Shown here piece after piece: positions 565 to 17,759 of a DNA stretch of 54,619 bases. Positions within the stretch are counted from its first letter, which is position 1. Every line of letters starts with the position of its first letter. The position numbers and the translations under genes were made by a program. The stretch is from a virus: IMG/VR virus record IMGVR_UViG_3300042317_000583, positions 1-54,619 of that record; one strand, written 5' to 3'. Below the pieces are notes generated by a model. The model was not told the origin of the DNA and did not search any database. It saw only the letters and a list, made by a program, of their open reading frames with translations.

Positions 565-583
565 TTTGCATCCTTGCAAAAGT

Positions 584-622: not shown

Positions 623-656
623 GGCAGGAGCCATCCATGGCTGCGAAAGTGTTGTG

Positions 657-668
657 TACCCTAACAAT
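657..668 (-). promoter_or_regulatory. Intercistronic box ATTGTTAGGGTA (copy 1)
   Basis: Perfect copy of a 12-bp element found about eleven times, always on the coding strand of the early region. It lies 5 bases after the stop codon of the upstream gene and about 90 bases before the Gp88-like start. TGT-TAGGGT resembles an extended -10 promoter (TGn-TAnnnT). Confidence 0.55.
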
Positions 669-673
669 GAGCG

Positions 674-2987: not shown

Positions 2988-3125
2988 GTCAGGGAATCTC
3001 CTTCCATATAAGGGTTTTATTCCGGGTTTTCTGTCGCCCTAAGTCACGCGCCCGGGCCGAGTTGCGTCAAGTTGCCAGAAAACCCACGAAATCTGCGCAA
3101 GAAAAACCAACACGCGCCAGAAATC
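2988..3125. other. 138-bp gap between primase-polymerase and helicase with inverted repeat
   Basis: This non-coding stretch is more AT-rich than its surroundings. It holds a 10-bp inverted repeat GGGTTTTCTG (3024-3033) / CAGAAAACCC (3076-3085), a direct GGGTTTT repeat, and TATATAG at the primase stop. The helicase ribosome-binding site is at its left end. A TTGACG hexamer at 3065-3070 has no convincing -10 partner. The place between primase and helicase makes it a candidate origin or regulatory site, but nothing proves this. Confidence 0.4.
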
Positions 3126-4868: not shown

Positions 4869-4904
4869 GACAAACGCTCCTGTTTTGACTTCCGTGACAA
4901 AAGG

Positions 4905-4948
4905 CCGGTGCCCCGGGCGAGGAGGACAAGTCACTCGCCCGGGGCCGG
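4905..4948. other. GC-rich hairpin upstream of primase-polymerase
   Basis: Perfect 12-bp arms (GCCCCGGGCGAG at 4910-4921 and its complement at 4934-4945), extended by CCGG pairs around a one-base bulge, with a 12-nt loop. It begins 40 bases after the upstream stop (4988) and ends 37 bases before the next start (4868), the position shared by the other intercistronic hairpins of this genome. Confidence 0.75.
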
Positions 4949-4987
4949 CATCACGGCGGGCAGCGGCCCGCCGGAGGACACTCACAC

Positions 4988-5761: not shown

Positions 5762-5782
5762 AAAGCACTCCTTGGTGCAGCG

Positions 5783-5794
5783 CACCATAACAAT
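5783..5794 (-). promoter_or_regulatory. Intercistronic box, variant ATTGTTATGGTG (copy 3)
   Basis: Lies between the stop at 5805 and the GTG start at 5761, 10 bases after the stop. It keeps TGT-TATGGT, an extended -10-like pattern. Confidence 0.45.
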
Positions 5795-5804
5795 TGGGTA
5801 CCAA

Positions 5805-6305
5805 TCAACCGCGCGCCGCACTGTGCAGCGAAGCGGACCTGAACTCCTGAACCAGACCCTCAAACGGCGTGCCATCGGCCAGCCGTGCGTCACCGGAGAC
5901 GCCCTTGTTCTTCGCCTGTTCCTTCAGCCACGCCTTGAGCGTGCCTGTCAGCACCGTGCGAATCTCGTCAGCCATGCTGACGCCGTCCTCATCAACAACA
6001 GTCGCCGCAGCCGCCAGCACCTTGTCACGGTTCTCCTTCAGCACCGAGATGCTCACGTCCTCCTGCACCCACCACGTCCTGTCGTGGGCGATCGCACCGT
6101 CGAGCCCAGCGAGCTTAAGCAGGTCAATGCACTTGACCTCAAGCTCGTCGGCCTCCTTGCCGAGCTTCTTGGCAAGGGCAGACGCTTCCGTGGCCTGCTT
6201 CTTCTTGTCCATAAGCTCCTTGAACTTCGCCTGAAGTGCCGGCAGCACCGGCCCCTCAGTCGCACCGTCCAGAGACGCCGCCAGCGCGGCTCCTGCCTCG
6301 GTCAT
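5805..6305 (-). CDS. Hypothetical coiled-coil protein (166 aa)
   Basis: The start ATG 6305 overlaps the helicase stop (ATGA). Residues 25-60 are rich in K, E and A and look like a coiled coil. They are followed by an AHDRTWWVQEDVSISVLKENRDKV strand-rich part. The layout (coiled coil, beta-rich middle, helix ending in W-L-K) recalls small phage proteins often found beside SNF2 helicases and nucleases, but I cannot name a family. Translational coupling to the helicase suggests a joint role. Confidence 0.7.
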   Translation of the reverse strand: MTEAGAALAASLDGATEGPVLPALQAKFKELMDKKKQATEASALAKKLGKEADELEVKCIDLLKLAGLDGAIAHDRTWWVQEDVSISVLKENRDKVLAAAATVVDEDGVSMADEIRTVLTGTLKAWLKEQAKNKGVSGDARLADGTPFEGLVQEFRSASLHSAARG

Positions 6306-7687
6306 TCCGAGTCCTCCTCATTGGAATCAACCCTTTTCGTGAGGCGGTCCACGACCGCCTGAACCACGTTCTTCCGCTCCCTCAGAGCGGCGTACACATC
6401 CTGATCGACCGTGCCCTTGGCAACGAGGTGGTAGTACCGACAGCACCTCGTCTGCCCCGGGCGGCGCAGCCTCGCAAGGCTCTGCTCGTAGTCCCCGAGC
6501 GACCACGACATTGAGTAGTAGACCGCGTAGCAGGCCCGGGTCAGGTCGATCCCGACTCCGCCGGAGGCAATCTGCACGGCGAGGACAGTCGTGTCTCCAC
6601 CCTGCCATCGCTCCAGAGTGTTCTCGTTTCCGCTGACCTCGCTGCTTGTCCGGCCGAGCCGCCGCGCCGCCGCGTGCACCTCTTGGATGTCCGCCGCGAA
6701 CCGGCAGAACACGACCACCGGCTCGTTGACCGGCAAGTCCTCCATCCACTCCTCAAGTGCCGACGCCTTGCTCGGCGTGCCATCCACAAGCTGCGTCCCG
6801 CCGATGGCGTCCGACGCCGGGAGGTAGCCGCCCGTCAACTGCCCGAGCCGGAGAAGCTTGGTCAGCGTGTTCGCCGCCACGACTTCTCCCCTCTCAAGCA
6901 GTGCCACGCAGTTCTCCTCCAAGTCGCGGTACGCCCGCATGATCTTCGCCGAGAGCTTGACCTCAATCGTTTCGTGGATCGCGTCTGGCAGGTCAAGCAC
7001 CTCGTCCGCCGCAGCCCGCCATGCGTTGCGGTCCAGCTTGGACGTCAACTCGTCCATGTTCCGCCACGACCGGACCTTGCTCTGAAACACCGGGTCGGTG
7101 TCTGCGTACCGCGACCGCATCCTGACGATGGACGTGCCGAACACCGTAGGGTCGAGGAACCGGAACTGGCCGAACAGGTCGAGCGGCGAGTGCGGCATCG
7201 GCGTTCCGGTCAAGCACAGCCTCCGGGCCTTCGGGTGCTTCCTCGAAAGCTCGTAGAGCCAGCGAGACGCCCTGCCCATCGCGGCCTTGATGCGGTGGCT
7301 CTCGTCAAGGACGATGGCATCCCACTGCACCTGCGTGATGACTTCCGCCAGCCCCTTCCGCCAGACGGCCTCGTAGTTCACGACGACCGCCAGCTTCCCG
7401 CCCCGGGCCAGTGCCTCCGTCAGCAGTTGCCCCCGCTTCGCAACGGAGTGCCGCGTCAGGTTCAGCACGAAACGCCCCGGGTCAAACATCCGGTGCTGCT
7501 TGACCCACGCCGGCCCCACGGCCGGCGGGCAGCAATACAGCACCACGTTCGCGTCGGCCACGGCGAGGATGGCCGCGCCGCTCTTTCCGACTCCCATGTC
7601 CGCGGCGAACATCCCGGACTGCCGGGATGCGTACCACTCAATCATGCTGACCTGATGACCCCACGGCTTGACGGCTTCCATAGTCAT
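6302..7687 (-). CDS. SNF2-like DEAD/DEAH helicase-ATPase (461 aa)
   Basis: Superfamily 2 ATPase. Walker A is ADMGVGKS (near residues 29-36), motif II is VLDESHR, motif III is LCLTGTP, and the C-terminal lobe carries QIASGGVGIDLT and a final QSLARLRRPGQ arginine motif. Such short phage SNF2 proteins act on double-stranded DNA in replication or repair. The start ATG 7687 overlaps the preceding stop (ATGA) and has a strong GGAGGT site. The open frame continues 56 codons upstream inside the previous gene, with no good start. Confidence 0.9.
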   Translation of the reverse strand: MTMEAVKPWGHQVSMIEWYASRQSGMFAADMGVGKSGAAILAVADANVVLYCCPPAVGPAWVKQHRMFDPGRFVLNLTRHSVAKRGQLLTEALARGGKLAVVVNYEAVWRKGLAEVITQVQWDAIVLDESHRIKAAMGRASRWLYELSRKHPKARRLCLTGTPMPHSPLDLFGQFRFLDPTVFGTSIVRMRSRYADTDPVFQSKVRSWRNMDELTSKLDRNAWRAAADEVLDLPDAIHETIEVKLSAKIMRAYRDLEENCVALLERGEVVAANTLTKLLRLGQLTGGYLPASDAIGGTQLVDGTPSKASALEEWMEDLPVNEPVVVFCRFAADIQEVHAAARRLGRTSSEVSGNENTLERWQGGDTTVLAVQIASGGVGIDLTRACYAVYYSMSWSLGDYEQSLARLRRPGQTRCCRYYHLVAKGTVDQDVYAALRERKNVVQAVVDRLTKRVDSNEEDSE

Positions 7688-7968
7688 GCCACCTCCTCGG
7701 TCGTGAGGCTTTCGTGCATCACCTCGTCGCGGAGCTTGTCGATCTTCGCCTGCAGTTCGCCGATCTGGCGAACCATCCCCTTGATCACGTCGTCTGCGGC
7801 TCTGGCCTTGGTGGCGTGCCATCGGTCGTTCAGCGGCACAAGCGAGTCGTACCACCGCACCAGCGGCACCCCGTCAACCACGATCTCGCTGACCGTGCCC
7901 TCGTCAAACCAGTAGGTCCCGGGCTGCAATCCAACGTATGCCCGGTAGACCTTCGTGCCCTTGTCCAT
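7684..7968 (-). CDS. Hypothetical protein (94 aa)
   Basis: Not recognised. Start ATG 7968 follows GGAGG at a good distance; other in-frame ATGs at 7983 and 8022 are possible. The N-terminal half is beta-rich and aromatic (YRAYVGLQPGTYWFDEG). The C-terminal half is a helix with heptad-like spacing (IKGMVRQIGELQAKIDKL). It is translationally coupled to the SNF2-like helicase. Confidence 0.65.
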   Translation of the reverse strand: MDKGTKVYRAYVGLQPGTYWFDEGTVSEIVVDGVPLVRWYDSLVPLNDRWHATKARAADDVIKGMVRQIGELQAKIDKLRDEVMHESLTTEEVA

Positions 7969-8034
7969 CTCTCTGTCCTCCATGCTTTCAGTAGGCGTCA
8001 GGTACGCCGCGGCTCGCTCCAAGCGGCCGCAGCG

Positions 8035-8046
8035 TACACTAACAAT
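8035..8046 (-). promoter_or_regulatory. Intercistronic box, variant ATTGTTAGTGTA (copy 4)
   Basis: Sits 3 bases after the stop of the DUF932 gene and about 65 bases before the start at 7968. It is a one-base variant of the consensus. Confidence 0.5.
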
Positions 8047-8049
8047 AGG

Positions 8050-9021
8050 TCACTTCGTCAATGCCAGAGCCGCCGAGAATGCGTTCTCCTTCAGTCGAGC
8101 CGCCGAGCCGAACAGGACGGATGACACCCTGTTGTCCCTGCGGTTCTCCGCCGACGTGCCGCGGGTGCCCATCCCGTGATCCGCGTACTCGGACACCGCG
8201 TTGTAAGCGGTCCACGCGGAGAACCGTCCGTCGAGCCCCGAGTTCCTCTCGTTGTGGAGCATCGCGTAGAACGATCCCACCACCCGCTCGACGCCGCGGT
8301 CAGACAGTGCCGATGGGACGACCGACCGGAAATAGCCCTCGACGGCACCCGTATCCATCGCGTGCCTCGCCAGAGCCTCGACCTGCTCCTTGAACAGGTC
8401 GTGCCTCTGTTCGATGATCCCGAGGCAGTCCCGAGCCCGGGAGACTCGTTGCGACAGCGGCTCCGCCCGGTGGATGAGCCGGACCATGGCCGACCCGGCC
8501 GACAGCGACTCGGCGAGCCGGAGCGTGTTGGCACACACCACCCGGATCGACGTGGGGAACAACGTGAGAGCCTTCGTCCCGTCGTGGCCGTTCACGACCA
8601 GCACGTACTGCTCCAGAATGTCCCTGTCCGTCACCCGGATCACCTTCGGCAGCTTCGCCAGCATGAACACATGCCGTCCGCCGCGGAGAGCCCCGGCGGT
8701 ATGCCAGTGCGCCAGTCCTTCCCCGGCGATGCTGTCCATCCATCCAAACGCCTCGCTGTTCTGGAGCGGTGCGTACTTGTGCCCCACGCAGCCGAGGACG
8801 GCCCCGGTGTCCGACCGGACCACAGCCCGGTGCGACGGCACTTCGATGCCACTGAGCGTCGTCAGGTGTTGCGTCTGCACCTCCCAGTCGAGCCCCGCCA
8901 GCTTGATAGCGTCGGCACTGGTCTGAGCCGAGTCCACAACCTGTCCGAGTCCGTGCCACGCCTGACTTCCGACCGCCATGAACGCGGCCCTTCCTGTCGT
9001 CTGGTCAATTTCATGAGCCAT
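8050..9021 (-). CDS. DUF932 phage/plasmid-like protein (323 aa)
   Basis: Full-length member of the DUF932 (phage/plasmid-like TIGR03299) family, normally 300-380 residues. Diagnostic parts are AWHGLGQVV near residue 20, the Y-A-P-L-Q-N motif with a following F near residue 85, GGRHVFMLAKLP, LVVNGHDGTKALTLFPTSIRVVC in the middle, and the WTAYNAVSEYADH region near the end. Members are common in phages and plasmids beside replication genes; the biochemical activity is unknown. A GGGAG site precedes ATG 9021. Confidence 0.9.
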   Translation of the reverse strand: MAHEIDQTTGRAAFMAVGSQAWHGLGQVVDSAQTSADAIKLAGLDWEVQTQHLTTLSGIEVPSHRAVVRSDTGAVLGCVGHKYAPLQNSEAFGWMDSIAGEGLAHWHTAGALRGGRHVFMLAKLPKVIRVTDRDILEQYVLVVNGHDGTKALTLFPTSIRVVCANTLRLAESLSAGSAMVRLIHRAEPLSQRVSRARDCLGIIEQRHDLFKEQVEALARHAMDTGAVEGYFRSVVPSALSDRGVERVVGSFYAMLHNERNSGLDGRFSAWTAYNAVSEYADHGMGTRGTSAENRRDNRVSSVLFGSAARLKENAFSAALALTK

Positions 9022-9059
9022 TGCACACTCCCTTTCTTAGCCACTGCGGCTTGTTTGTG

Positions 9060-9071
9060 AACACTAACAAC
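9060..9071 (-). promoter_or_regulatory. Intercistronic box, variant GTTGTTAGTGTT (copy 5)
   Basis: Located about 38 bases before the DUF932 start, in the 85-bp gap 9022-9106. As an extended -10 it would give a leader of about 30 nt. Confidence 0.45.
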
Positions 9072-9106
9072 TGAACCGTAGCATCTTACACGACTGAAAA
9101 CATATG

Positions 9107-9325
9107 TCAACGGGTGCGGCGAGAATTTTGGTCCGCCCCAGCCATGGCCGCAGCCGCATCGCCCACTTCAATGAGAGCGAGAGCGAGCCGCCTGACGGGC
9201 GACTCGTACTTGCCGTATTCCCGGGCGATGCTGCTCGGGTATCGCAGCGTAGGGCGAGCCTGCGAGCCGACGATGACACCCGCAGCCAACGCCACCAGAA
9301 CAGCCAGAGTCAGTCCGTACTTCAT
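9107..9325 (-). CDS. Small membrane or secreted protein (72 aa)
   Basis: Begins with one hydrophobic segment (YGLTLAVLVALAAGVIVGSQ, residues 3-22) and continues as a hydrophilic tail ending in S-R-R-T-R. It could be a membrane-anchored protein or an exported one. ATG 9325 overlaps the previous stop (ATGA) and follows AAGGAG. Function unknown. Confidence 0.7.
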   Translation of the reverse strand: MKYGLTLAVLVALAAGVIVGSQARPTLRYPSSIAREYGKYESPVRRLALALIEVGDAAAAMAGADQNSRRTR

Positions 9326-9618
9326 GACTTTCTCCTTGCTTCAGCGCGTTTGATCTTCCGCTCCTGCTTCTTCCGACGCCGCTGCATCATCCGCTCCGCC
9401 CGGTCGCCCAGCCACGCGGCGAGCCCGGTCGCCTCCTCAGCGGTCATGAGGATGACCGACTCCTCCGGCGGCGCGGCGTTCCCGCGGTACCCGGGACGCA
9501 CCCCGACCGCAATTACGTCTTCCAGACCGTAGCTGCCTTCAAGCTCCCTCGCGTGAATAAACGCTGGCAGGAAGCATGCCTGCGTCTGCCGCCTGTAGAA
9601 GTCTCGCCTGATAGCCAT
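9322..9618 (-). CDS. Hypothetical basic protein (98 aa)
   Basis: Not recognised. The last 30 residues are strongly basic (MMQRRRKKQERKIKRAEARR), suggesting nucleic-acid or acidic-partner binding. The centre has E-E-S-V-I-L-M-T-A-E-E-A, a strand followed by a helix. It starts with ATG 9618, overlapping the preceding stop by one base (TAATG). Confidence 0.65.
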   Translation of the reverse strand: MAIRRDFYRRQTQACFLPAFIHARELEGSYGLEDVIAVGVRPGYRGNAAPPEESVILMTAEEATGLAAWLGDRAERMMQRRRKKQERKIKRAEARRKS

Positions 9619-9968
9619 TACACAGCCCTCCTTGGTGTGACGCGAACCCTAACAATTCCTTCGGCACGCTGCTTGCGAATCTTCGACGTAACTCGGTAGG
9701 GGCGTGCCACGACCCCACCGGGCAGGATGCTCTTGCGACGTGTCAGCGGCAGGACAGAGAACCCGCCATCGCGGTTGCTGTATGCCACGATCCACTTGCG
9801 ACCCCTGCGTTCCTCGTACTCCACGAACGTAAACGGCCCGCGAGCCGCCATACTTACCTTCTTGCGTTCCCCGCCGTCAAGCCGCACGACGTAGTAGGGA
9901 CCGCCCGTCACGCGGAACTGGTCCCCCGGCTCCAGCAGTACCCGCTCGCTCACTCTGTACGATTTCAT
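9618..9968 (-). CDS. Hypothetical beta-rich protein (116 aa)
   Basis: Starts at ATG 9968 with AAGGAGG upstream and an ATGA overlap with a 36-residue gene. The protein is basic and beta-rich, with E-P-G-D-Q-F-R-V-T-G-G-P-Y-Y-V-V-R near the start and an RKWIVAYSNRDGGF strand. It could be a small SH3-like or OB-like fold, but no family can be named. The 3' end of the gene contains an intercistronic box that would serve the next gene. Confidence 0.65.
   Translation of the reverse strand: MKSYRVSERVLLEPGDQFRVTGGPYYVVRLDGGERKKVSMAARGPFTFVEYEERRGRKWIVAYSNRDGGFSVLPLTRRKSILPGGVVARPYRVTSKIRKQRAEGIVRVRVTPRRAV
9645..9656 (-). promoter_or_regulatory. Box ATTGTTAGGGTT in the 3' end of a gene (copy 6)
   Basis: Coding (I-V-R-V) but placed 27 bases before the start of the next gene at 9618, matching the spacing of the non-coding copies. 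Confidence 0.45.
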
Positions 9969-10075
9969 TTGCGTTCCTCCTTCTTCTTGTTTCGGCTTTC
10001 TGCCGCGGCCTTGGCTTTCTTCGCCCACCGCTCCCGCATCCACATGCGGTATCGCTCCTGCTTGATTCCTTTCAT
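9965..10075 (-). CDS. Very small basic protein (36 aa)
   Basis: A 36-codon gene from ATG 10075 to TGA 9965. ATGA overlaps at both ends link it to genes on either side, the pattern of real genes in this genome. The product is rich in K, R and E (ERYRMWMRERWAKKAKAA) and probably a single helix. Its coding region also supplies the ribosome-binding site of the next gene, so it may serve partly for translational coupling. Function unknown. Confidence 0.55.
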   Translation of the reverse strand: MKGIKQERYRMWMRERWAKKAKAAAESRNKKKEERK

Positions 10076-10539
10076 GCACCCCTCCATGCCGGCTTGGGGG
10101 AGGGGATCGCCATGGCGTAAACGTCGTCCCACGTCAGCGTCCTCGCGAACTCGCTACCCTTCTCCGCAAGTGCCGCGACGAACTCGGCCCGCTCCGGCAG
10201 GGGCTCAAAGCGTCCCTCCGCAATCAGCGTCTTGAGGCTGTACGCATTTGTCTGAATGCCGTACTGGACGGACTCCCCAGCCGGGAGCTCGGTCTTGCTG
10301 AAGTTCACGCCGCCGAACCCGCTATACAACGCCCCCTCGACCCGCGTGGCGTCCACCGACGCCAGCAGCCAGTACGGCATCGGGCAGGTGTACCCCCCGA
10401 CGAACATGACCGTCATCTCGTACTTGCCCGGGACGAGCCGCAGTATCTCGTAGTCCGCGGCGTAGTAGGACGGGCAGTGCTGAAACTCCTTGGGCTCCGT
10501 GACGACGTAGTGGCCGATAATGATTCTTGGTTCTGACAT
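10072..10539 (-). CDS. Hypothetical protein (155 aa)
   Basis: ATG 10539 follows AAGGA at good spacing. The sequence has a beta-rich N-terminal half (IIIGHYVVTEP, EMTVMFVGGYTC) and a helical C terminus (ERAEFVAALAEKGSEFART). No family recognised. A variant intercistronic box lies about 37 bases upstream, so the gene may have its own promoter inside the operon driven by promoter cassette A. Confidence 0.65.
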   Translation of the reverse strand: MSEPRIIIGHYVVTEPKEFQHCPSYYAADYEILRLVPGKYEMTVMFVGGYTCPMPYWLLASVDATRVEGALYSGFGGVNFSKTELPAGESVQYGIQTNAYSLKTLIAEGRFEPLPERAEFVAALAEKGSEFARTLTWDDVYAMAIPSPKPAWRGA

Positions 10540-10575
10540 GACTGGTTCCTTGTGACTGATGGTGATGGTGATTGG

Positions 10576-10587
10576 TAAGCAAACAAT
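10576..10587 (-). promoter_or_regulatory. Intercistronic box, degenerate ATTGTTTGCTTA (copy 8)
   Basis: Nine bases after the stop codon at 10596 and about 37 before the start at 10539. The first six bases match the consensus; the rest diverge. Confidence 0.35.
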
Positions 10588-10595
10588 TAGTCCGA

Positions 10596-10805
10596 CTACA
10601 GAAGCCACTCGACATCCACGCCGGCGATCAGGAGCCGCTCCAGCACGAACTGATACCAGACCCGCTCCTTCGTGCTGACGCCGTGGCCCGACTCCCGGCA
10701 ATCCTGAAAGCCCCGCTCCAGCCAGTCCTTCTTGGCGAGAAGTTGCTCGACGGTCATCTCGGCGATTTCCTGCATAGGGGCGGGGAGTGCTTTGTTGTTT
10801 TCCAC
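10596..10805 (-). CDS. Hypothetical protein, first gene after promoter A (69 aa)
   Basis: Start GTG 10805 was chosen for its GAGGA site and because a -10 hexamer lies 56 bases upstream. The product is helical and acidic, with APMQEIAEMTVEQLLAKKDW and a C-terminal V-D-V-E-W-L-L. No family recognised. As the first gene under a duplicated, operator-bearing promoter, it is probably expressed early or on induction. Confidence 0.65.
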   Translation of the reverse strand: MENNKALPAPMQEIAEMTVEQLLAKKDWLERGFQDCRESGHGVSTKERVWYQFVLERLLIAGVDVEWLL

Positions 10806-10860
10806 GTTCTTGTCCTCGTAAAAGTGTTCGCGGCGGGCACCACGCCAACCGCATGACCCT

Positions 10861-10889
10861 AGTATACCGACATCGGAATACTCTGTCAA
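10861..10889 (-). promoter_or_regulatory. Promoter-operator cassette A
   Basis: On the minus strand TTGACA (10889-10884), a 17-bp spacer and TATACT (10866-10861) form a near-consensus sigma70-type promoter. A 22-bp imperfect palindrome (half-sites AGTATTCCGA and TCGGTATACT around TG) fills the spacer and the -10, so a bound protein would block RNA polymerase. An A/T-rich tract upstream of the -35 looks like an UP element. Predicted transcription start about 10854, leader about 49 nt. Confidence 0.85.
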
Positions 10890-10905
10890 GGGGCAGGAGA
10901 AAAAA

Positions 10906-11733
10906 TTATTTGCTGCTCGTCCAGACGCACTCGGCTGCTGTCTTGTCGTTGCGGAATCGGACGGCGTTCGGGTGCCGCATGGAGCCGGATTCGAACACCT
11001 GAAATCCCTTGACCTCCAGCACTTGACCGACGTAGAGCGACGGCTCCGCCCAGATGGCTTCCCGCATCGCGTCGGTCCAGCCGCCGCCGACCCGCACCTT
11101 CTCGGTCAGCGTGCCGCGGACGTACATGCCGCAGACCACTGCACCGGCGCGGCCGGCGTGCTTGCCCTCGCCCTCGACCACGCTCATGACGACGTAGTCC
11201 ATCGTGAACTGCTTCTTCACGCGGCCGATGATCGCGGAGGAGTAGGCGTCCGTAGACCTGCGGAATACGAGCCCCTCGGCTCCGTCTCGCTCCACGTACT
11301 CGTCCCACAGCTTCCGAGCCGCCCCGGCTGGCTCCGACCGCGTAGCGACGAGCCATTCAACGCCAGATGCAGCGATGGCCCCCGCGGCCATCCGCCACTC
11401 GTACTGCTCGCTCTCCGCGATGTTCGTGCCTTCGATCTCCAGCACGTCAAACACCCGGACGACTCCGCAGTTGCCGCTGTCGGCCCCGCTCGTAGCCCGC
11501 TGCGTGCCGATGAGGTACTCGCCGACCAGCACCATGTCCACGGTGCCCTGCGGCACTGGCTTCGTGTGCTTGAGCATGCCCTGCCGCGAGTAAATGCTGG
11601 CGGTGCCGTCCTTGATGACGACCCGAGCCCACCAGCCGTCGTACTTCGGCTGCACAAGGTCAAAGCCGGCCTTCATGGCATCGGCCACGGTGGCAAAGTT
11701 CTGGTACTTCTGGATTCGCTTCTCGTAGTTCAT
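10906..11733 (-). CDS. ATP-dependent DNA ligase (275 aa)
   Basis: Seals nicks in duplex DNA with ATP. Motif I (adenylated lysine) is QPKYDGWWAR near residue 30, motif IIIa is V-F-D-V-L-E-I-E-G, motif IV is D-G-A-E-G-L-V-F-R-R, and motif V is GRVKKQFTMDYVV. An OB-fold C terminus includes GQVLEVKGFQVFESG and the closing RHPNAVRFRNDK. The size fits minimal phage ligases (T7 type is longer, about 350 aa). ATG 11733 follows GAGGA. The gene probably supports replication or repair. Confidence 0.9.
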   Translation of the reverse strand: MNYEKRIQKYQNFATVADAMKAGFDLVQPKYDGWWARVVIKDGTASIYSRQGMLKHTKPVPQGTVDMVLVGEYLIGTQRATSGADSGNCGVVRVFDVLEIEGTNIAESEQYEWRMAAGAIAASGVEWLVATRSEPAGAARKLWDEYVERDGAEGLVFRRSTDAYSSAIIGRVKKQFTMDYVVMSVVEGEGKHAGRAGAVVCGMYVRGTLTEKVRVGGGWTDAMREAIWAEPSLYVGQVLEVKGFQVFESGSMRHPNAVRFRNDKTAAECVWTSSK

Positions 11734-11763
11734 CGTCTTGTCCTCGGTTGGTGATTGTGGGTG

Positions 11764-11775
11764 ATCCATAACAAT
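11764..11775 (-). promoter_or_regulatory. Intercistronic box, variant ATTGTTATGGAT (copy 7)
   Basis: Its first bases overlap the TAA stop of the upstream gene, and it ends about 30 bases before the ligase start at 11733. Confidence 0.45.
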
Positions 11776-12137
11776 TAGCGAGCGTTGACCTTGCGGGCCT
11801 TCTTGCGGGTGTTCTTGATCCACAGCAGGAGCCCTTCCATGGTGCGGATGACGTTGTTCGACTCGACCTCAAACTCGCCCTCAAGGTAGGGGCTGTCCTG
11901 ATACAGGGCGGAGGCACCGACGATCTGGAGGTTCTTGCTGACCAGATCAAGCTCAACGTGGGCCCCGTCGTGAAACGCGATGACGACCACGGTGTCGCTG
12001 CTCAGCGATACGGGCTGCGTGTAGACCACCCAGTCCGTGTGCCGCTTCAGCCATGCGACGAGCGGCTGCTCGACCCGGCACTCCAGACCCTTGCACATGT
12101 CTTTGATGCTCGTCTTGGCGGCTTCAGTCTTGCTCAT
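11775..12137 (-). CDS. Hypothetical protein, first gene after promoter B (120 aa)
   Basis: Not recognised. It starts at ATG 12137 with AAGGAA upstream, about 46 nt after the predicted transcription start of promoter cassette B. A cysteine pair (CKGLEC) lies near residue 15. A beta-rich core (WVVYTQPVSLSSDTVVVIAF) follows, then a basic helical C terminus (LLWIKNTRKKARKV). It precedes the DNA ligase and could share its pathway. Confidence 0.65.
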   Translation of the reverse strand: MSKTEAAKTSIKDMCKGLECRVEQPLVAWLKRHTDWVVYTQPVSLSSDTVVVIAFHDGAHVELDLVSKNLQIVGASALYQDSPYLEGEFEVESNNVIRTMEGLLLWIKNTRKKARKVNAR

Positions 12138-12189
12138 TGTTTGTTCCTTGTTGCAGTGTTCGCGGCCGCACCGGCGACCGCATGACCCT

Positions 12190-12218
12190 AGTATACCGCT
12201 ATCGGAATACTAGGTCAA
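12190..12218 (-). promoter_or_regulatory. Promoter-operator cassette B
   Basis: Same architecture as cassette A: TTGACC, 17-bp spacer, TATACT, with the 22-bp palindrome at 12190-12211 and an A/T tract upstream. The conserved block extends into the leader (GTTCGCGGC, then a purine-rich site), so promoter and leader were duplicated together. It drives the gene starting at 12137. Confidence 0.85.
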
Positions 12219-12262
12219 GGGGGGGGAGAAAAAATTATTTGGTGAGCCATTCGCCCAGTGAG

Positions 12263-12451
12263 TCAGCCGGGCATCCGTCGCTGCAAGTCTTCCAGCCTGC
12301 CGATGATCGTCGCCAATCGCCGCGTCAGCCGTGCGTCAAGCTTCTCGTCTTCCATCACGGTCAGGCACTCGATGAGCCTTGACTTCGCGGGGCGGAGCGA
12401 CTCTTTCACCTCGGCCAACCTCCGCAGCTTGTTTCCGTTTTTCGTTGCCAT
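12263..12451 (-). CDS. Small helical protein (62 aa)
   Basis: ATG 12451 follows GAGGAAAG. The product is basic and fully helical in appearance (KLRRLAEVKESLRPAKSRL then KLDARLTRRLATIIGRLEDL). Function unknown. It is the last gene of the operon driven by cassette C and is followed by cassette B. Confidence 0.6.
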   Translation of the reverse strand: MATKNGNKLRRLAEVKESLRPAKSRLIECLTVMEDEKLDARLTRRLATIIGRLEDLQRRMPG

Positions 12452-12478
12452 CGTTCTTTCCTCGTTAGTTGGTTAGTG

Positions 12479-12805
12479 TCACTCGTCAATCCACGCGGCC
12501 CACGCGGCCACGCAGTCGTATCGCACGCCGCCGCGTACCGGCGACCGGTCGCGGCCCGTCGTCGTCCAGCCGTCGTCGCCGCCTGCACGCGGCTGGTAGT
12601 AGCCAGCCGCGATCAGCACGTCGATAGCGGTGCGTGCCATCGCCCGATCCTTCTCCCGCTCGGCGTAGTCCAGCACGTCGGACAGTGCGTCTGCCATGTC
12701 GTAGTCGTACTCTCGGTCGCCGTCCATGAAGTAGTCAAGCTCGTCGCGGAGCCGCTGCGTGGCGTGCTGCTCAATCGCTGCGGTCACTCGTTCGCGGTTG
12801 GTCAT
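12479..12805 (-). CDS. Hypothetical protein (108 aa)
   Basis: Start ATG 12805 overlaps the preceding stop (ATGA) and follows GGAGG at good spacing. A helical acidic N-terminal half (DYFMDGDREYDYDMADALSD) is followed by a G- and R-rich C terminus ending YDCVAAWAAWIDE. No family recognised. It belongs to the operon of small accessory genes driven by cassette C. Confidence 0.65.
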   Translation of the reverse strand: MTNRERVTAAIEQHATQRLRDELDYFMDGDREYDYDMADALSDVLDYAEREKDRAMARTAIDVLIAAGYYQPRAGGDDGWTTTGRDRSPVRGGVRYDCVAAWAAWIDE

Positions 12806-13056
12806 CGTGCGGCCCTCCTGCTGCACTCGTCGCAATCGCACGGCACCGCCCACTTGACTGCTTTGGCGAGGTCGGCCACTGAATACTCGTGGCATGCGTG
12901 CGAGTCAGCCAGCGTGCATTTCAACCCGGGCTTGAGGTACGCCCACAGCCCGTTCCCGTCCTCGGGGGCTTCGCCCGGTCGTCGCTCGTCACGGAAGTCA
13001 ATCACGCGGCCCGTCGCCAGCATCCGGGCTACCGTTTGTTGTTCTCGCTTGGTCAT
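12802..13056 (-). CDS. Small cysteine-containing protein (84 aa)
   Basis: ATG 13056 follows AAGGGA. The C terminus carries PCDCDECSRR, and there are further C and H residues in CTLADSHACHEY, which could form a zinc site. The N terminus is basic and helical (TKREQQTVARMLATGRVI). Function unknown. A perfect hairpin lies 32 bases upstream. Confidence 0.65.
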   Translation of the reverse strand: MTKREQQTVARMLATGRVIDFRDERRPGEAPEDGNGLWAYLKPGLKCTLADSHACHEYSVADLAKAVKWAVPCDCDECSRRAAR

Positions 13057-13087
13057 CGTGCTTGTCCCTTGTGTCTTGTGGTTCCGA

Positions 13088-13112
13088 GCCCCGCCGCACT
13101 GTGCGGCGGGGC
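13088..13112. other. Perfect GC-rich hairpin between two small genes
   Basis: GCCCCGCCGC arms around an ACTGT loop (12 bp counting the closing pairs). It begins 12 bases after the stop at 13124 and ends 32 before the start at 13056. No U-tract follows, so classical intrinsic termination is doubtful. Confidence 0.8.
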
Positions 13113-13123
13113 GTGATCGCGTC

Positions 13124-13288
13124 TCAGCCGCCGGCGTTCCGCGGGCAGCTCCAGTTGATGTTCTCCCTGATCCACCGCTGCATCGCTCCGACCGAGTAAA
13201 ACCGGGGAGCGTCCTTGCAATTGTCGATGAAGTAAACCCCGTCGCACTCGGTGTAGCGGACGCCGTTGTAGTTGCCAGTGCTTGTCAT
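13124..13288 (-). CDS. Small protein, first gene after promoter C (54 aa)
   Basis: ATG 13288 follows AAGGACAAG, 48 nt after the predicted start of transcript C. The product has G-V-Y-F-I-D-N strands and a C-terminal MQRWIRENINWSCP helix. It is short but has the same promoter, leader and ribosome-binding arrangement as the other cassette-driven genes. Function unknown. Confidence 0.6.
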   Translation of the reverse strand: MTSTGNYNGVRYTECDGVYFIDNCKDAPRFYSVGAMQRWIRENINWSCPRNAGG

Positions 13289-13342
13289 CTGCTTGTCCTT
13301 TTGTAGAAGTGTTGCCGGCCGCACCAGCGACCGACTGACCCT

Positions 13343-13371
13343 AGTATACCGATATCGGAATACTCTGTCAA
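13343..13371 (-). promoter_or_regulatory. Promoter-operator cassette C
   Basis: TTGACA, 17 bp, TATACT with the operator at 13343-13364. This copy has a perfect ten-base core CCGATATCGG, making it the most symmetric of the four operators. The A/T tract upstream of the -35 is present. It drives the gene starting at 13288 and probably the small genes to 12263. Confidence 0.87.
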
Positions 13372-13412
13372 GGGGGCACAGAAAAAATATTTTCAGGTGT
13401 CCGCGTGCGCGG

Positions 13413-13583
13413 CTAGTGGTGCTGCCACATGTCTCGGTGCATGCCGCTGATAAGTGCACCAGCCAGTGCCCAGTCAAGCGACTCCACGCACCCCGAGCCA
13501 GACTCGCCGTCCAGCACGGCAGCACACAAGCAGCCGTAGTGCATCACCCCGACGTAGATGCGCCCGGTCTGAATGAGGCTCAT
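13413..13583 (-). CDS. Small hypothetical protein (56 aa)
   Basis: ATG 13583 overlaps the stop of the leaderless HTH gene (ATGA). The product has Y-V-G-V-M-H-Y-G-C-L-C and a C-terminal MHRDMWQHH. Function unknown. Translational coupling suggests co-expression with the regulator. Confidence 0.55.
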   Translation of the reverse strand: MSLIQTGRIYVGVMHYGCLCAAVLDGESGSGCVESLDWALAGALISGMHRDMWQHH

Positions 13584-13822
13584 TTCGTCTTCCGTCGCTT
13601 GGGCTCGGAGTCGCGAGGCCTGCCCATAGAAGGATGCCGCTTGAACTGAGCGGCAGCGACCCCGTCGACGAGCCAGTTCCGGCCGATGCGTCGGCCCGGG
13701 ACGAGCCCCGTCTGCACAAGGTGTCTCATCCAGCGATCGGACACGTCCGCCAGCGCAGCCGCCTCCGGGAGAGGGATTGCGTTGTCCAGACTGAAGTCGT
13801 TGTCTTTCTTCTTTTCTGCCAT
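13580..13822 (-). CDS. HTH regulator with AT-hook-like tail, leaderless mRNA (80 aa)
   Basis: A MerR/excisionase-type winged-helix protein. LPEAAALADVSDRWMRHLV is the HTH, followed by the G-R-R-I-G-R-N-W-L-V wing. The tail M-G-R-P-R with S-E-P-K-R-R-K-T-K resembles an AT-hook. ATG 13822 lies exactly six bases after a TATACT -10 hexamer, so transcription should begin at the start codon, giving a leaderless message as for lambda cI from PRM. The promoter contains the half-site AGTATACCG of the four cassette operators. This makes the protein the best candidate for the cassette regulator and suggests autoregulation. Both are inferences. Confidence 0.75.
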   Translation of the reverse strand: MAEKKKDNDFSLDNAIPLPEAAALADVSDRWMRHLVQTGLVPGRRIGRNWLVDGVAAAQFKRHPSMGRPRDSEPKRRKTK

Positions 13823-13828
13823 GGTCAT

Positions 13829-13857
13829 AGTATACCGCCTTACGGATAATGCTCCAA
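13829..13857 (-). promoter_or_regulatory. Promoter E with degenerate operator (leaderless regulator gene)
   Basis: On the minus strand TTGGAG (13857-13852), 17 bp, TATACT (13834-13829), then six bases and the ATG at 13822. The left half AGTATACCG equals that of cassettes A-D; the right half is degenerate (ACGGATAAT). An additional ATG at 13828 touches the -10 and is unlikely to be transcribed. Confidence 0.75.
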
Positions 13858-13886
13858 CACCTCCCACGCACGCGCAATGGGCTCAA

Positions 13887-14108
13887 ATGACGATCACCAC
13901 CTACCACTGTCCTAAATGCTCTGCCGCACTGGAGTCGGCGGGGGAGGTCGTCGTTGACGGCTCCCCGCTGCCGGTGTTCCAGTGCGACACATGCACCGTG
14001 ACTCGCTCGGTGTTCGGCCCGGGGTCAAAGGAGTACCGGATGTCGTTTACGTTCGCCGTAAACGCTGCCGGCCAGCCTGTTGACCCCGGGGACGACACCC
14101 TCATCTAA
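13887..14108 (+). CDS. Zinc-ribbon protein, plus strand (73 aa)
   Basis: One of only three plus-strand genes. C-P-K-C near residue 8 and C-D-T-C near residue 33 form a zinc ribbon (YHCPKCSAALES ... FQCDTCTVTRSVFG). The rest is a beta-rich tail ending D-P-G-D-D-T-L-I. It diverges from the leaderless regulator gene 64 bases away, a Cro/CI-like geometry, and overlaps its convergent neighbour by four bases. It could be a transcription-associated factor, but no family is named. Confidence 0.65.
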   Translation: MTITTYHCPKCSAALESAGEVVVDGSPLPVFQCDTCTVTRSVFGPGSKEYRMSFTFAVNAAGQPVDPGDDTLI

Positions 14109-14338
14109 ACGTCTCCCAGCCAGCCCGGGTGAACCCGGAAGTCGGGTCCGTCGTACTCGTCGTACTCGTCGTACTCGTCGTCCGGCTCCCCGCAGTCGTC
14201 GTCCGGCTCGCCGTCCTTGAGCAGCGAGCTCGCGTGCTCCAGAGCGTCGTCGTACGCCGCGTCGAGTTGCTTGATCTCAGCCATCAACTCGCCCATTGCT
14301 TCTGCCGACAGGTTCTCCTGAAACTTCAGCCTTGCCAT
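14105..14338 (-). CDS. Small acidic repeat protein next to the amidotransferase (77 aa)
   Basis: Starts with ATG 14338, directly abutting the amidotransferase stop. A helical N-terminal half (residues 1-40) is followed by an acidic stretch P-D-D-D-C-G-E-P-D-D with DEYDEYDEYDG, encoded by a 9-bp tandem repeat near 14152-14180. The C terminus is PDFRVHPGWLGDV. No family recognised. Its place behind an amidoligase/amidotransferase pair makes it a possible peptide substrate or tag precursor; this is inference. Confidence 0.65.
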   Translation of the reverse strand: MARLKFQENLSAEAMGELMAEIKQLDAAYDDALEHASSLLKDGEPDDDCGEPDDEYDEYDEYDGPDFRVHPGWLGDV

Positions 14339-14977
14339 TCAGTCCTCCGCGATCTCAAGGTTGCGTCCCTCCCGCACCGGGGTCACGCGCCCCGGCAGTC
14401 CGTACGGCAGGCTCGCCAGATAAAACGACTCCTTCGTCTCGCCCATGTGCAGCGGTTGCCCGTTCTCTCGGGCCGCTATAAGCCGATCTGGCCACAGTGC
14501 CAGCATCACGAAGGGAGAGACGCCCTTCGCCTCGTCCACGGCCCTACGGAAGCGGTGATGCGGCTCTCCGTTAAACTCCCGCAGCATGAGCCCCAGCACC
14601 TCGCTATCGCAGTCCGTGCTTGCCGTCAGGCGGTGCCGGTCGAGCAGGGATCGGTAATGGCCGATGACTCCGTTGTGCACCACCCATGCGTCTCCGCCGT
14701 CGTGCGGGTGGTTGTTGAGGTTGTTCGCCGGGTCGCCGTGAGTCGCATACCGGCAGTGCCCGATGAGCAGCCTCGCGTCCTTCGCCATGGCGAGCAGTCC
14801 GAGCGAGTCGGTGATTGCACCGCTCTGCTTGAATGACCGCATCCGCCCCCGGGCGTCCACCCATGCCAGCCCCCATGCGTGCGGCCCACGCATCTCAGTC
14901 GTCCTTGCCAGCATCTTCAGGATGCCGAGGTTGACCGGCTCGTCGTTCTTCGCAGCGAATCCAAAAACTCCGCACAT
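14339..14977 (-). CDS. Class II glutamine amidotransferase (Ntn hydrolase) (212 aa)
   Basis: MCGVFGF at the start gives the catalytic Cys2 after removal of Met, which fixes the start at 14977 (strong AAGGAG). Typical class II motifs follow: R-G-P-H-A-W-G-L-A-W, I-G-H-C-R-Y-A-T-H-G, NNHPH and WVVHNGVIGHY. It hydrolyses glutamine to release ammonia for a partner ligase. It has no synthase domain of its own, and the gene before it is an amidoligase, so the two probably form an amide-bond-forming pair. An intercistronic box and a hairpin precede it. Confidence 0.9.
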   Translation of the reverse strand: MCGVFGFAAKNDEPVNLGILKMLARTTEMRGPHAWGLAWVDARGRMRSFKQSGAITDSLGLLAMAKDARLLIGHCRYATHGDPANNLNNHPHDGGDAWVVHNGVIGHYRSLLDRHRLTASTDCDSEVLGLMLREFNGEPHHRFRRAVDEAKGVSPFVMLALWPDRLIAARENGQPLHMGETKESFYLASLPYGLPGRVTPVREGRNLEIAED

Positions 14978-15009
14978 CGTCGTTCTCCTTGTTGTGTCTG
15001 TTGTTCCGG

Positions 15010-15034
15010 CCCTCCCGGCACCATGCCGGGAGGG
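15010..15034. other. Perfect hairpin upstream of the amidotransferase
   Basis: CCCTCCCGGCA (15010-15020) pairs with TGCCGGGAGGG (15024-15034) around a 3-base loop. It lies 32 bases before the start codon and 8 bases after an intercistronic box, so it would sit in the 5' leader of a transcript from that box. Confidence 0.75.
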
Positions 15035-15041
15035 TGATTCG

Positions 15042-15053
15042 TACCCTAACAAT
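15042..15053 (-). promoter_or_regulatory. Intercistronic box ATTGTTAGGGTA (copy 9)
   Basis: Perfect copy whose first A overlaps the TGA stop of the amidoligase gene. The amidotransferase starts 65 bases downstream. Confidence 0.55.
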
Positions 15054-15892
15054 CAGGCCTGAGCGTCGTACTGAACTGCCAGCCGGCGGAGCGTCTTGAC
15101 CACCTTCTTGATGACTTCCTGACGGTCAGTGCAGCTAACACGCAGCATCCCGGTGCCGACTGCGACTCGCCCGATCCAGCCCAGCCGGCGGAACAGCCGC
15201 TCAAGCTCAACCTGACCCTCGTTGGCCTGCGTGCAGTTGACCCGCTGGTTCCAGTTGACGCGGCGACCGGTGGTGGCCTGATCGTATGCCTTCTCAACCA
15301 GTCCGAGGCAGATGCCGATGGCTCCGAGCACCTTGTCGATGTTGAGCGTGCCTGCGAAAGCCCGGAACTCGACGGTCGGCTTGGTGGTGGCGAGGTTCAG
15401 GACGTGGTAGCGGTCGCGGCTGGCACGGCGGACGGCAGCGGTGTTGCCGCCGTAGTGCTTGATCGGCTTGGAGTAGGTGCCACGCTCGCGGCTCTTGGTG
15501 CCAGTCGAGGCGTAGATGGCCTTCTCATGGTTGGCGATCAGTGCGACGAGGTGCTGGAGGATGTTGTAGTTGTTCTTGTCGAACCCGACGTGAACGTGCA
15601 GGCCGCAGGTGACGTTCACCACGCCGCCCCGCTGCTTGATGGCGGCGACGACAGCCACCACCTGATCAAACCCGCTCTCGCCGCGGAGCAGCAGGTCGCC
15701 GCTCGGGCTGATGATCTCCACGCCCCGCATGCCGGCCGGAGCCGCGGTCAGCGAGCCATCGGGCTTGACCATCCAGCCGGCGGGTAGCCAGAGGTTTCCG
15801 CCTGACGGGTTGCCCCAGCTACCGACAACGACGTTGCCGACTGGCATGTAGCACTCGATCTCAACGCCGAAGGTCATTTCATGAGCTTTCAT
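15053..15892 (-). CDS. Amidoligase family protein (279 aa)
   Basis: Matches the amidoligase_2 (COOH-NH2 ligase type) family. TFGVEIECYM at residues 7-16 holds the metal/ATP-binding E-x-E, C-G-L-H-V-H-V-G near residue 97 the conserved histidines, and T-V-E-F-R-A-F-A-G the E-x-R motif. Members form amide bonds using ATP and occur in phages beside class II amidotransferases. The product is thought to be a modified peptide or wall component; the substrate here is unknown. ATG 15892 lies 48 nt after the predicted start of promoter D. Confidence 0.85.
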   Translation of the reverse strand: MKAHEMTFGVEIECYMPVGNVVVGSWGNPSGGNLWLPAGWMVKPDGSLTAAPAGMRGVEIISPSGDLLLRGESGFDQVVAVVAAIKQRGGVVNVTCGLHVHVGFDKNNYNILQHLVALIANHEKAIYASTGTKSRERGTYSKPIKHYGGNTAAVRRASRDRYHVLNLATTKPTVEFRAFAGTLNIDKVLGAIGICLGLVEKAYDQATTGRRVNWNQRVNCTQANEGQVELERLFRRLGWIGRVAVGTGMLRVSCTDRQEVIKKVVKTLRRLAVQYDAQA

Positions 15893-16065
15893 CTTCTTGT
15901 CCTCTTGAAGGTTTCGCGGCGACCGACGCGGCCGCCACATGCCACTAGTATACCGACATCGGAATACTCGTCAAGGGGAGAGCAGAAAAAATATTTCTTG
16001 TGCGGAAATAGCCGCGAAACAGCAAAGTCGTCCTGAATGGACACTTTGGAGCGTGAGAAAAACGC
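15893..16065. other. 173-bp gap holding promoter D
   Basis: Contains the amidoligase leader, promoter cassette D with its operator, and an A/T-rich upstream tract. A short GCGG/CCGC stem also lies near 16000-16015, downstream of the double-HTH gene ending at 16066. Nothing else is recognised. Confidence 0.6.
15947..15974 (-). promoter_or_regulatory. Promoter-operator cassette D
   Basis: TTGACG, 16-bp spacer, TATACT, with the operator palindrome at 15947-15968 identical to that of cassette A. The spacer is one base shorter than in A-C, so this copy may be weaker. It drives the amidoligase operon. Confidence 0.83.
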
Positions 16066-16473
16066 CTACAGAGAGGCTCGCGGGCGACCCATTTTGGGAC
16101 GCCGGCCCCGCTTCATGTAGCGAGCCACGCTGGACTCGTACACCATCCAGCCGTTGCCCCACTTCTCGCCAAGCAGCCCGCCGCGGCGCAGAAGGTGCGT
16201 AACGTGTGCCTCCCGGACGCCCAGCCGCGAAGCGGCCGACGCCACGCTGACCACGGCCGCGCGGGGCTGAGGTCGAGCCGCGTCGTTTGATGCCTGTTTT
16301 CGTGGCCCGCCAGAGTTCTGCCACTCAAGCAGGCTCTTGCGGTCAATCATCCAGAACCGGAGCCACCGCCGGCCGGTCAGGTGCCCTCGCTTCAGCAGCC
16401 ATGAAACGTGCTTAGGCTCGCAGCCCAGCCGCCCAGCCGCCTCGCTTGTCGTGCAGTACCCGGTTGTCCTCAT
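16066..16473 (-). CDS. Tandem HTH protein with AT-hook-like tail, probably leaderless (135 aa)
   Basis: Two MerR/excisionase-type HTH domains in a row: TTSEAAGRLGCEPKHVSWLL (residues 8-27) and SVASAASRLGVREAHVTHLL (about 76-95), each followed by a wing (F-W-M-I-D and N-G-W-M-V-Y). The tail G-R-R-P-K-M-G-R-P-R resembles an AT-hook. ATG 16473 lies six bases after a TACAAT hexamer, the same spacing as the leaderless gene at 13822, and it lacks a ribosome-binding site. The likely role is transcription control or directionality factor for the integrase. Confidence 0.72.
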   Translation of the reverse strand: MRTTGYCTTSEAAGRLGCEPKHVSWLLKRGHLTGRRWLRFWMIDRKSLLEWQNSGGPRKQASNDAARPQPRAAVVSVASAASRLGVREAHVTHLLRRGGLLGEKWGNGWMVYESSVARYMKRGRRPKMGRPRASL

Positions 16474-16479
16474 GCACCG

Positions 16480-16485
16480 ATTGTA
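16480..16485 (-). promoter_or_regulatory. Putative -10 (TACAAT) for a leaderless HTH transcript
   Basis: TACAAT followed by CGGTGC and then the ATG at 16473. No good -35 is seen 16-18 bases upstream, so it would depend on an activator or be weak. Confidence 0.45.
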
Positions 16486-16498
16486 GCGGCTGCACGGA

Positions 16499-16723
16499 TC
16501 ACCCGGCAGACCGAGGGCGTCCAACTCGCTTTTTTCGGGATGCCACTTCGCGCTGATACTGCGCCGCGTCCTTCTCGCAGGCCAGCCGCTCGACCGCCCA
16601 CGCACGCCCGTTGATTTTGAATCCCGGCAGCGTGCCGTCGTTAAGTCGCCTGAGAACCCACACTTGCGTCACGTTCATGATCTTCGCAGCGTCCTGCACG
16701 CTGATCCACGCTCGTTTTTCCAT
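16499..16723 (-). CDS. Excisionase/MerR-type HTH protein with AT-hook-like tail (74 aa)
   Basis: WISVQDAAKIMNVTQVWVLR is an excisionase-type HTH, followed by the LPGFKINGRAWAV wing. The C terminus S-R-K-K-R-V-G-R-P-R resembles an AT-hook. Size and its place back to back with the integrase gene fit a recombination directionality factor or lysogeny-switch regulator. ATG 16723 follows AGAGGAA. Confidence 0.75.
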   Translation of the reverse strand: MEKRAWISVQDAAKIMNVTQVWVLRRLNDGTLPGFKINGRAWAVERLACEKDAAQYQREVASRKKRVGRPRSAG

Positions 16724-16741
16724 TTGCGTTCCTCTGTCTGC

Positions 16742-16753
16742 CATGCTAACAAT
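16742..16753 (-). promoter_or_regulatory. Intercistronic box, variant ATTGTTAGCATG (copy 10)
   Basis: Ends 19 bases before the HTH start at 16723. As the first element upstream of this minus-strand unit it most directly supports a promoter role. Confidence 0.45.
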
Positions 16754-16864
16754 TCCGGTACAGGGATAACCCCCCCCGCCAGCGTGGCGAGAGGGGGCAA
16801 ACCTGAATGGCGGGGACAGGATTCCGCGCCGGGAGGATTGCATACGCACGAAGCGTGTCCTACT

Positions 16865-16882
16865 TCTGAGGTACACCTCAGA
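16865..16882. promoter_or_regulatory. Perfect palindrome upstream of integrase
   Basis: TCTGAGGT and ACCTCAGA flank a central AC (8-bp arms). It ends 20 bases before the integrase ATG, in a leader without a clear ribosome-binding site. It may be an operator or an RNA hairpin limiting integrase expression. Confidence 0.6.
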
Positions 16883-16901
16883 GAAAGTAACTGGATTCGC
16901 T

Positions 16902-17759
16902 ATGTTGCTCATCGACCTGTTCACGAACTACTACCGCCCGCTGCGTCTGCGGGGCAAGTCGCTCCAGACGTGCCGGTTGTACGGCTGCACAATCCGTACA
17001 TTCGGCAAATGGCTCCAGTACCCCGCTACCGTGGACGACTTGTCCGACCTCATGCTCTCCCGCTTTCTAGAGGAGCGAGCGGCGACCCGCAGCCCCTACA
17101 CGGCTGAGAAGGAACGCACTCAGCTTGTGTCGCTCGCACGGTTCGCACGGGATCGAGGGATTATCCCGATCATGCCGGAAGTTCCGCCCGCTCCGCTGCC
17201 CGAGCGAGTGCCGAGAGCGTTCACTCTGCCCGAGCTTCAAGGCATCATGCGCGCCGCTGCGGCGACTCGCGGAACGGTAGGACACGTCGCGGCTGGCGTC
17301 TGGTTCACCGCGTTGATCAGTGTTCTTTGGGAGACGGCGGAGCGTATCGGTGCGGTGCTAGAGTGCGTGCCGGGAGACTTCACAGCACCGCACCTCCTCG
17401 TCCGTGCCGAGGTGCGGAAGGGTGGGAAGCGCGACAAGGCATATCGGCTGTCCGCACGCACTGCCGCCTTGGTGCGTCAGGTCTGCGGCGAGCGGCGCAT
17501 CTTTGAGTGGCCGCAGGGCCGCACATACTTGTGGGCGAAGTACGCCGACATTGTCGCCCGTGCCGGGCTAGGGAAAGGCAGGCACCTGTCGTTTCACGCA
17601 CTGCGCCGCTCGGCAGCAAGTCACTACGCTAGCCTTGGCGGTGACGCCGTGGCGTTGCTAGACCACTCAAACCCGCGAATCACGCACCGCTGGTACCTCG
17701 ACCGCCGCATGACCGACCGAGGGCCGCAGCCGTGCGACTTGCTGCCAGACATTTCTTGA
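16902..17759 (+). CDS. int: Tyrosine recombinase / integrase (285 aa)
   Basis: Phage integrase family. An N-terminal SAM-like core-binding domain occupies residues 1-85 (KSLQTCRLYGCTIRTFGKWL). The catalytic domain carries W-E-T-A-E-R-I-G (first Arg), K-G-G-K-R-D (Lys), H-A-L-R-R-S-A (H-x-x-R), L-L-D-H-S-N (second His) and R-W-Y-L-D (nucleophile Tyr). It performs site-specific integration and, with a directionality factor, excision. The protein is compact and has no long arm-binding domain. It is divergent from the HTH genes; no strong ribosome-binding site precedes ATG 16902. Confidence 0.92.
   Translation: MLLIDLFTNYYRPLRLRGKSLQTCRLYGCTIRTFGKWLQYPATVDDLSDLMLSRFLEERAATRSPYTAEKERTQLVSLARFARDRGIIPIMPEVPPAPLPERVPRAFTLPELQGIMRAAAATRGTVGHVAAGVWFTALISVLWETAERIGAVLECVPGDFTAPHLLVRAEVRKGGKRDKAYRLSARTAALVRQVCGERRIFEWPQGRTYLWAKYADIVARAGLGKGRHLSFHALRRSAASHYASLGGDAVALLDHSNPRITHRWYLDRRMTDRGPQPCDLLPDIS

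Follow-up and report, generated by a model that had tools for sequence, protein, structure and literature searches.

In bacteriophage P1, through the C1 operators, and in phiC31, through conserved inverted repeats, one repressor acts on many dispersed operators over early promoters; their repressor families and sites differ from those described here. SPbeta encodes one phage repressor, MrpR (YopR), which holds several operons through SPBRE, an element in about ten prophage promoter regions whose binder was identified only long after the element had been predicted (PMC10516654). Cluster A mycobacteriophages such as L5 and Bxb1 carry many dispersed operators or stoperators, and site and repressor diverge in parallel, setting immunity specificity (PMC6550527). 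Here, four promoter units (P1 to P4) sharing a 22-bp palindromic operator were analysed in the IMG/VR virus record IMGVR_UViG_3300042317_000583, the window being the entire record of 54,619 bases. On sequence comparison, the phage's own 80-residue winged helix-turn-helix (HTH) protein probably reads the operators of P1-P4 and represses these promoters.

Four promoter units with one operator

The four units lie on the minus strand and carry the pattern AGTATTCCGAT(NN)CGGTATACT at 10861-10882 (P1), 12190-12211 (P2), 13343-13364 (P3) and 15947-15968 (P4), which bears out the four copies with palindrome and upstream A/T tract that a first-pass annotation had listed. Each consists of an A/T tract, a C-run, TTGACN, a spacer of 16 bp in P4 and 17 bp in P1-P3, and TATACT, with the palindrome AGTATTCCGATNNCGGTATACT (operator type A) over most of the spacer and the -10 element. 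The -10 element TATACT, the -35 element and the A/T tract are at 10861-10866, 10884-10889 (TTGACA) and 10900-10911 in P1; at 12190-12195, 12213-12218 (TTGACC) and 12229-12240 in P2; at 13343-13348, 13366-13371 (TTGACA) and 13382-13393 in P3, which has the best palindrome; and at 15947-15952, 15969-15974 (TTGACG) and 15986-15996 in P4. The palindrome is present in every copy, as had been stated, but the arms are not identical (AGTATTCCG vs AGTATACCG) because one arm has to contain TATACT. The palindrome pattern gave 4 matches in the window and 0 for the reversed-pattern control, and the arm pattern with one mismatch allowed gave 11 matches vs 0.69 expected. In a palindrome-blind sigma-70 scan of positions 1-17500, the best minus-strand promoters were exactly P1-P4, and no terminator-like site was found on the minus strand between them.

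Mean pairwise identity among the four copies was 0.23 upstream, 0.73 over the A/T tract and C-run, 0.95 over the operator and -10 element, 0.68 and 0.54 over the first 40 nt of the leader and 0.42 beyond, with 0.26 for random sequence. Given this drop on both sides of the operator, the copying involved a discrete unit of some 100 bp, leader included, as previously proposed. Transcription from P1-P4 is predicted to start near 10854, 12183, 13336 and 15940. The HTH gene has a promoter of the form TTGGAG-17-TATACT, and in it lies a fifth, weaker site (13829-13857, minus strand; operator 13829-13851) with the right arm intact, the left arm degenerate and one additional central base. The ATG of this gene (13822) would coincide with the expected transcription start, and the transcript would be leaderless. 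One operator is thus found in several promoters of a single phage genome, as in a dispersed-operator regulon. On the plus strand, a small zinc-ribbon-like protein is encoded at 13889-14104, and a divergent promoter-like site (TGGTCA-17-GATAAT) overlaps the 13829 operator.

With near-consensus hexamers, ideal 16-17 bp spacing and an A/T tract, the promoters should be strong unaided, and for strong promoters with a site over the spacer and -10 element, exclusion of the polymerase, i.e. repression, is the simplest mode of action. Activation as by MerR, in which the spacer-bound HTH protein turns the promoters on, would suit the position of the site and the MerR-like winged HTH of the HTH_17 family. 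MerR-type promoters have spacers of 19-20 bp, and with the 16-17 bp spacer and near-consensus hexamers found here an activator should be unnecessary, which makes this reading improbable.

Operator type and HTH protein across contigs

The proposed regulator (13580-13822, minus strand) is an excisionase-like winged HTH protein of 80 residues with the recognition helix SDRWMRHLV and a basic GRPR tail. It matched Pfam HTH_17 with an E-value of 8e-4, under the curated cut-off, and phrog_1840 with an E-value of 6e-7, and its PHROG matches are excisionases and a Cox-like excisionase/repressor. The AlphaFold model has a winged HTH fold with a mean predicted local distance difference test (pLDDT) score of 71, and the first PDB structural match was Pukovnik Xis (template modelling score 0.72-0.75 by target, E-value only 0.04); a PDB sequence search gave no match.

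At least 20 further IMG/VR contigs carry the promoter family, with a constant framework and interchangeable operators of types A-F, which were assigned by eye on contigs that are fragments. The IMG/VR scan with the bare palindrome found ten contigs, in 8 of which the palindrome is in a like-built promoter, and the scan with the upstream framework alone found 17 stretches with six operator types (A-F) in one framework, types A, B, C and E being inverted repeats. Relatives have one or two type-A copies per contig vs four in the window, and some operator-A contigs hold additional framework copies with other operators. Contig L106 has, at 5312-5345, the full framework and leader start without the palindrome; framework and operator are therefore separable.

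Of the eight operator-A contigs, L093 is a fragment; the other seven span the region, and the HTH protein alone among the window proteins has a homologue in each of them. When the HTH alignment was searched against the proteins of 2.9 million contigs, eight contigs were returned. Seven of these had already been found by operator, so that 7/8 of the contigs found independently via the type-A operator were recovered; the eighth protein-search contig, L106, combines a degenerate operator with a changed recognition helix. Operator type and recognition helix are paired as A with RWMR, B with RYIR/SYIR, C with RHIR, D with GWVR, E with GYLR and F with GWIR/AWVR. The tail of the window HTH protein resembles type C, its helix is type A and the window operators are type A, a combination that points to the helix. 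Operator and HTH distances over 24 pairs were correlated (Mantel r 0.71 for the whole protein and 0.55 for the helix, p = 1e-4), more weakly for framework and HTH distances (r 0.49 and 0.39), and also within each of two HTH loci (r 0.83 at the A/C locus, p = 4e-4, and 0.67), although these p values ignore relatedness and contig kinship inflates their significance. Operator divergence thus parallels that of a phage-encoded DNA-binding protein, as in described dispersed-operator regulons.

The type B-F HTH genes sit directly at their operators, and in relatives the HTH-A gene is within an operon of candidate control, adjoining the integrase. In the window and in L098, L108 and L095, the promoter of the HTH gene itself contains a weaker self-operator. 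At L098:11041, L108:3043, L095:15070 and L100:3001, HTH genes beside the integrase have apparently leaderless promoters, in most cases with a degenerate operator. In a comparison that stands without statistical testing, L101 and L117 are about 88-100% identical over ~3.5 kb around the operator, leader, first gene, integrase and second HTH gene, with a few 60-bp bins lower. Exchanged between them are the operator arms (A vs C) and a ~1.2-kb block containing the HTH gene, and ~540 bp of near-identical DNA separates the operator from this block. In L111 (4159-5042) and L116 (5361-6271), an open reading frame (ORF) with an HNH-like part (by eye) lies behind a type-C HTH gene and ends in a type-A HTH tail (RSETEGRPRATKPKRAARKRR), as though insertion had placed a type-C HTH gene and an HNH gene inside a type-A one; regulator specificity may there have been exchanged by a homing-type process.

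Besides the kinship effect, several points weigh against the HTH protein as reader of the operators. The palindrome is poor in operator types D and F, no HTH gene lies within the 18-kb fragment L093 despite its two type-A operators, and the block exchanged between L101 and L117 carries other genes besides the HTH gene. The related proteins 186 Apl (PMC7498355) and BldC (PMC11963761) do not bind palindromes; their multimers occupy direct repeats spaced by about one helical turn (PMC7498355, PMC11963761). RdfS is probably no palindrome binder either, and an extended filament has been proposed for it (PMC11963761). The further genes of the ~1.2-kb block and the preference of known family members for direct repeats would also suit another protein, encoded in the exchanged block or by the host, as the reader, the HTH gene then being linked by position only. 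This is unlikely, since the HTH protein is the sole one common to the window and all A-type contigs covering the region, the type pairing holds at two separate HTH loci per genome, and the B-F type genes lie at their own operators. The comparison therefore gives good support to the earlier proposal that one regulator governs several operons and singles out the 80-residue HTH protein, the first candidate named there, which is shared by all A contigs covering the region and paired with the operator through its helix.

Host LexA had also been put forward as regulator. As in many SOS boxes, the palindrome lies over a consensus promoter, and prophages often use LexA. Among 84,980 host genomes, 64 stretches matched the bare palindrome exactly, none with the promoter framework, and these matches look like chance. 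Since none of these stretches is a promoter cassette, and the operator, unlike the framework, differs according to the phage HTH gene, a site for LexA or another host regulator is not supported and very improbable. Nor was the cassette found among 50,697 records of known phages at the sensitivity of that scan, apart from one short weak match. A search for HTH orthologues and the framework in sampled Planctomycetota, Verrucomicrobiota and Acidobacteriota turned up nothing beyond HTH_17 proteins that are unrelated and a single chance match.

Genes and leaders behind the promoters

The operon of P4 encodes an amidoligase (Amidoligase_2; 15053-15892, minus strand), a class II glutamine amidotransferase (14339-14977) and a 77-residue ORF (14105-14338). 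P3 heads an operon (12263-13288, minus strand) for four small proteins (13124-13288, 12802-13056, 12479-12805 and 12263-12451), the first of which resembles, by eye, the product encoded directly behind the L108 operator. The P2 operon (10906-12137, minus strand) encodes a 120-residue ORF (11775-12137) and an ATP-dependent DNA ligase (10906-11733). The transcription unit of P1 (1335-10805, minus strand), taken to extend as far as the same-strand genes run, would encode small proteins, a DUF932 protein, a helicase (6302-7855), a primase (3126-4985) and a second helicase (1335-2987). The description of each copy as heading an operon of accessory genes needs correction for P1, behind which the same-strand genes are not accessory genes alone but include the replication genes for helicase and primase.

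A tyrosine integrase (phrog_1; 16902-17759, plus strand) adjoins the cassette region, and the genes behind P1-P4 form the early region beside it. Two further HTH_17 proteins with GRPR (AT-hook-like) tails are encoded beside the integrase at 16066-16473 and 16499-16744, and just upstream of the start of the latter gene, at 16749, is an imperfect palindrome (AACAATTCCGGTACAGGGATAA). At 44769-47631, ParB-like proteins and a 3'-phosphoadenosine 5'-phosphosulfate (PAPS) reductase-like protein adjoin the terminase genes. L093, a contig of 47.6% G+C, has its two type-A operators at 215-236 and 799-820 together with homologues of the window amidoligase and amidotransferase; a type-A HTH gene is predicted to lie outside this fragment. 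Protein searches with the window amidoligase and ligase gave no useful relatives; L079 was without the cassette.

The leader in many units of relatives starts with a 6-bp hairpin with the loop CRRRUGAGA. In 12 distinct sequences, the stem was paired in 98.6% of its cells, a percentage biased upwards because the sequences were chosen for their ability to form the stem; the better evidence is that both partners had changed in 4 of the 6 pairs. The pairing was lost when the partners were slid against each other. The hairpins predicted in the window have other loops and are at 15914-15938 in P4 (10 bp, z -2.6), 13314-13335 in P3 (9 bp, z -2.5), 12162-12181 in P2 (8 bp, z -1.3) and 10830-10852 in P1 (z 0.1, stability no better than shuffles), all on the minus strand; only those of P3 and P4 clearly beat the shuffles. 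A leader peptide from a conserved ATG near +1 was considered and rejected, since P3 and one of the L093 copies lack the ATG and the frame is unconserved. In L095, L098, L100 and L106, the A/T tract is preceded, ~20 nt upstream, by a short hairpin resembling GTTTTCC-TCGG-GGAAAAC, which was not seen in P1, the window copy inspected. No Rfam family was found in the window or in L111, where the HNH gene adjoins the HTH gene.

Proposed regulation and comparison with known systems

P1-P4 would be strong sigma-70-type promoters for early transcription in a temperate-type phage, each with one common operator, read by the phage's own excisionase-fold HTH_17 protein. Bound across the spacer and -10 element, this protein would exclude RNA polymerase and shut off the amidoligase/amidotransferase, small-protein, ligase and replication operons jointly. 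Autoregulation is suggested by the weaker self-sites of the window and of three relatives, and the operator in the HTH gene's own promoter would mediate it. Across the phage group, the framework would stay constant while operator and HTH gene are swapped together, as for immunity-type specificity. With these early genes beside the integrase, a master repressor of early genes is the favoured reading, and the HTH protein may have a role in lysogeny.

The main rival to a master repressor is an early lytic damping regulator of the Cro/Cox/Apl kind that reads the same operator and also serves as excisionase, lysogeny being held by another, unrecognised repressor. It is consistent with the excisionase and Cox-like PHROG matches, with Pukovnik Xis as best structural match, with the location of the relatives' HTH-A gene inside a candidate target operon beside the integrase, and with the double roles of Apl and RdfS (PMC7498355, PMC11963761). 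The joint control of four strong promoters suits a master repressor better, and a Pfam scan of the window ORFs, many of which were unmatched, showed no other repressor-like protein; the damping role is accordingly rated as possible yet rather doubtful. We tentatively suggest, short of an even expectation, a widespread undescribed phage group in which single-domain excisionase-fold winged HTH proteins act as master repressors on inverted-repeat operators in a standard promoter/5'-hairpin cassette, regulator and operators being exchanged together as immunity alleles, possibly with two switches per genome around the integrase.

The analysis supplies a regulator that can be tested for these repeated operators, so far an orphan set. 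It also provides natural material for studies of excisionase-fold specificity and of phage immunity evolution: at least six protein-operator types that match, with a clean exchange between two nearly identical contigs among them. If the proposed regulation is true, excisionase-fold proteins act on inverted rather than direct repeats, as wide regulators beyond excision.

The statement in the first-pass annotation that the arrangement matched no known phage regulon was too strong, SPbeta MrpR/SPBRE (PMC10516654) and cluster A (PMC6550527) being precedents. As in SPbeta, one regulator, a repeated promoter element and several operons would be brought together, but MrpR is of the tyrosine-recombinase fold and its motif measures 15 bp, whereas here the candidate is an 80-residue excisionase-fold winged HTH protein and the site a 22-bp inverted repeat over the spacer and -10 element. 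Cluster A phages share the dispersed sites and the divergence of site in step with the DNA-binding protein; their sites are 13 bp long, mostly outside promoters, mainly in one orientation, act as roadblocks and are read by another repressor family, whereas the window phage has few, palindromic sites, each in a promoter. The HTH protein is like 186 Apl, RdfS, BldC and Pukovnik Xis, small winged HTH proteins that are mostly encoded beside an integrase and several of which regulate promoters, RdfS its own. Unlike those of Apl and BldC, the candidate sites of types A, B, C and E, to which the HTH proteins would bind, are inverted and not direct repeats one helical turn apart. The dispersed-operator arrangement itself has known phage precedents; what is apparently unusual here is a single-domain excisionase-fold protein that reads inverted-repeat operators with swappable specificity.

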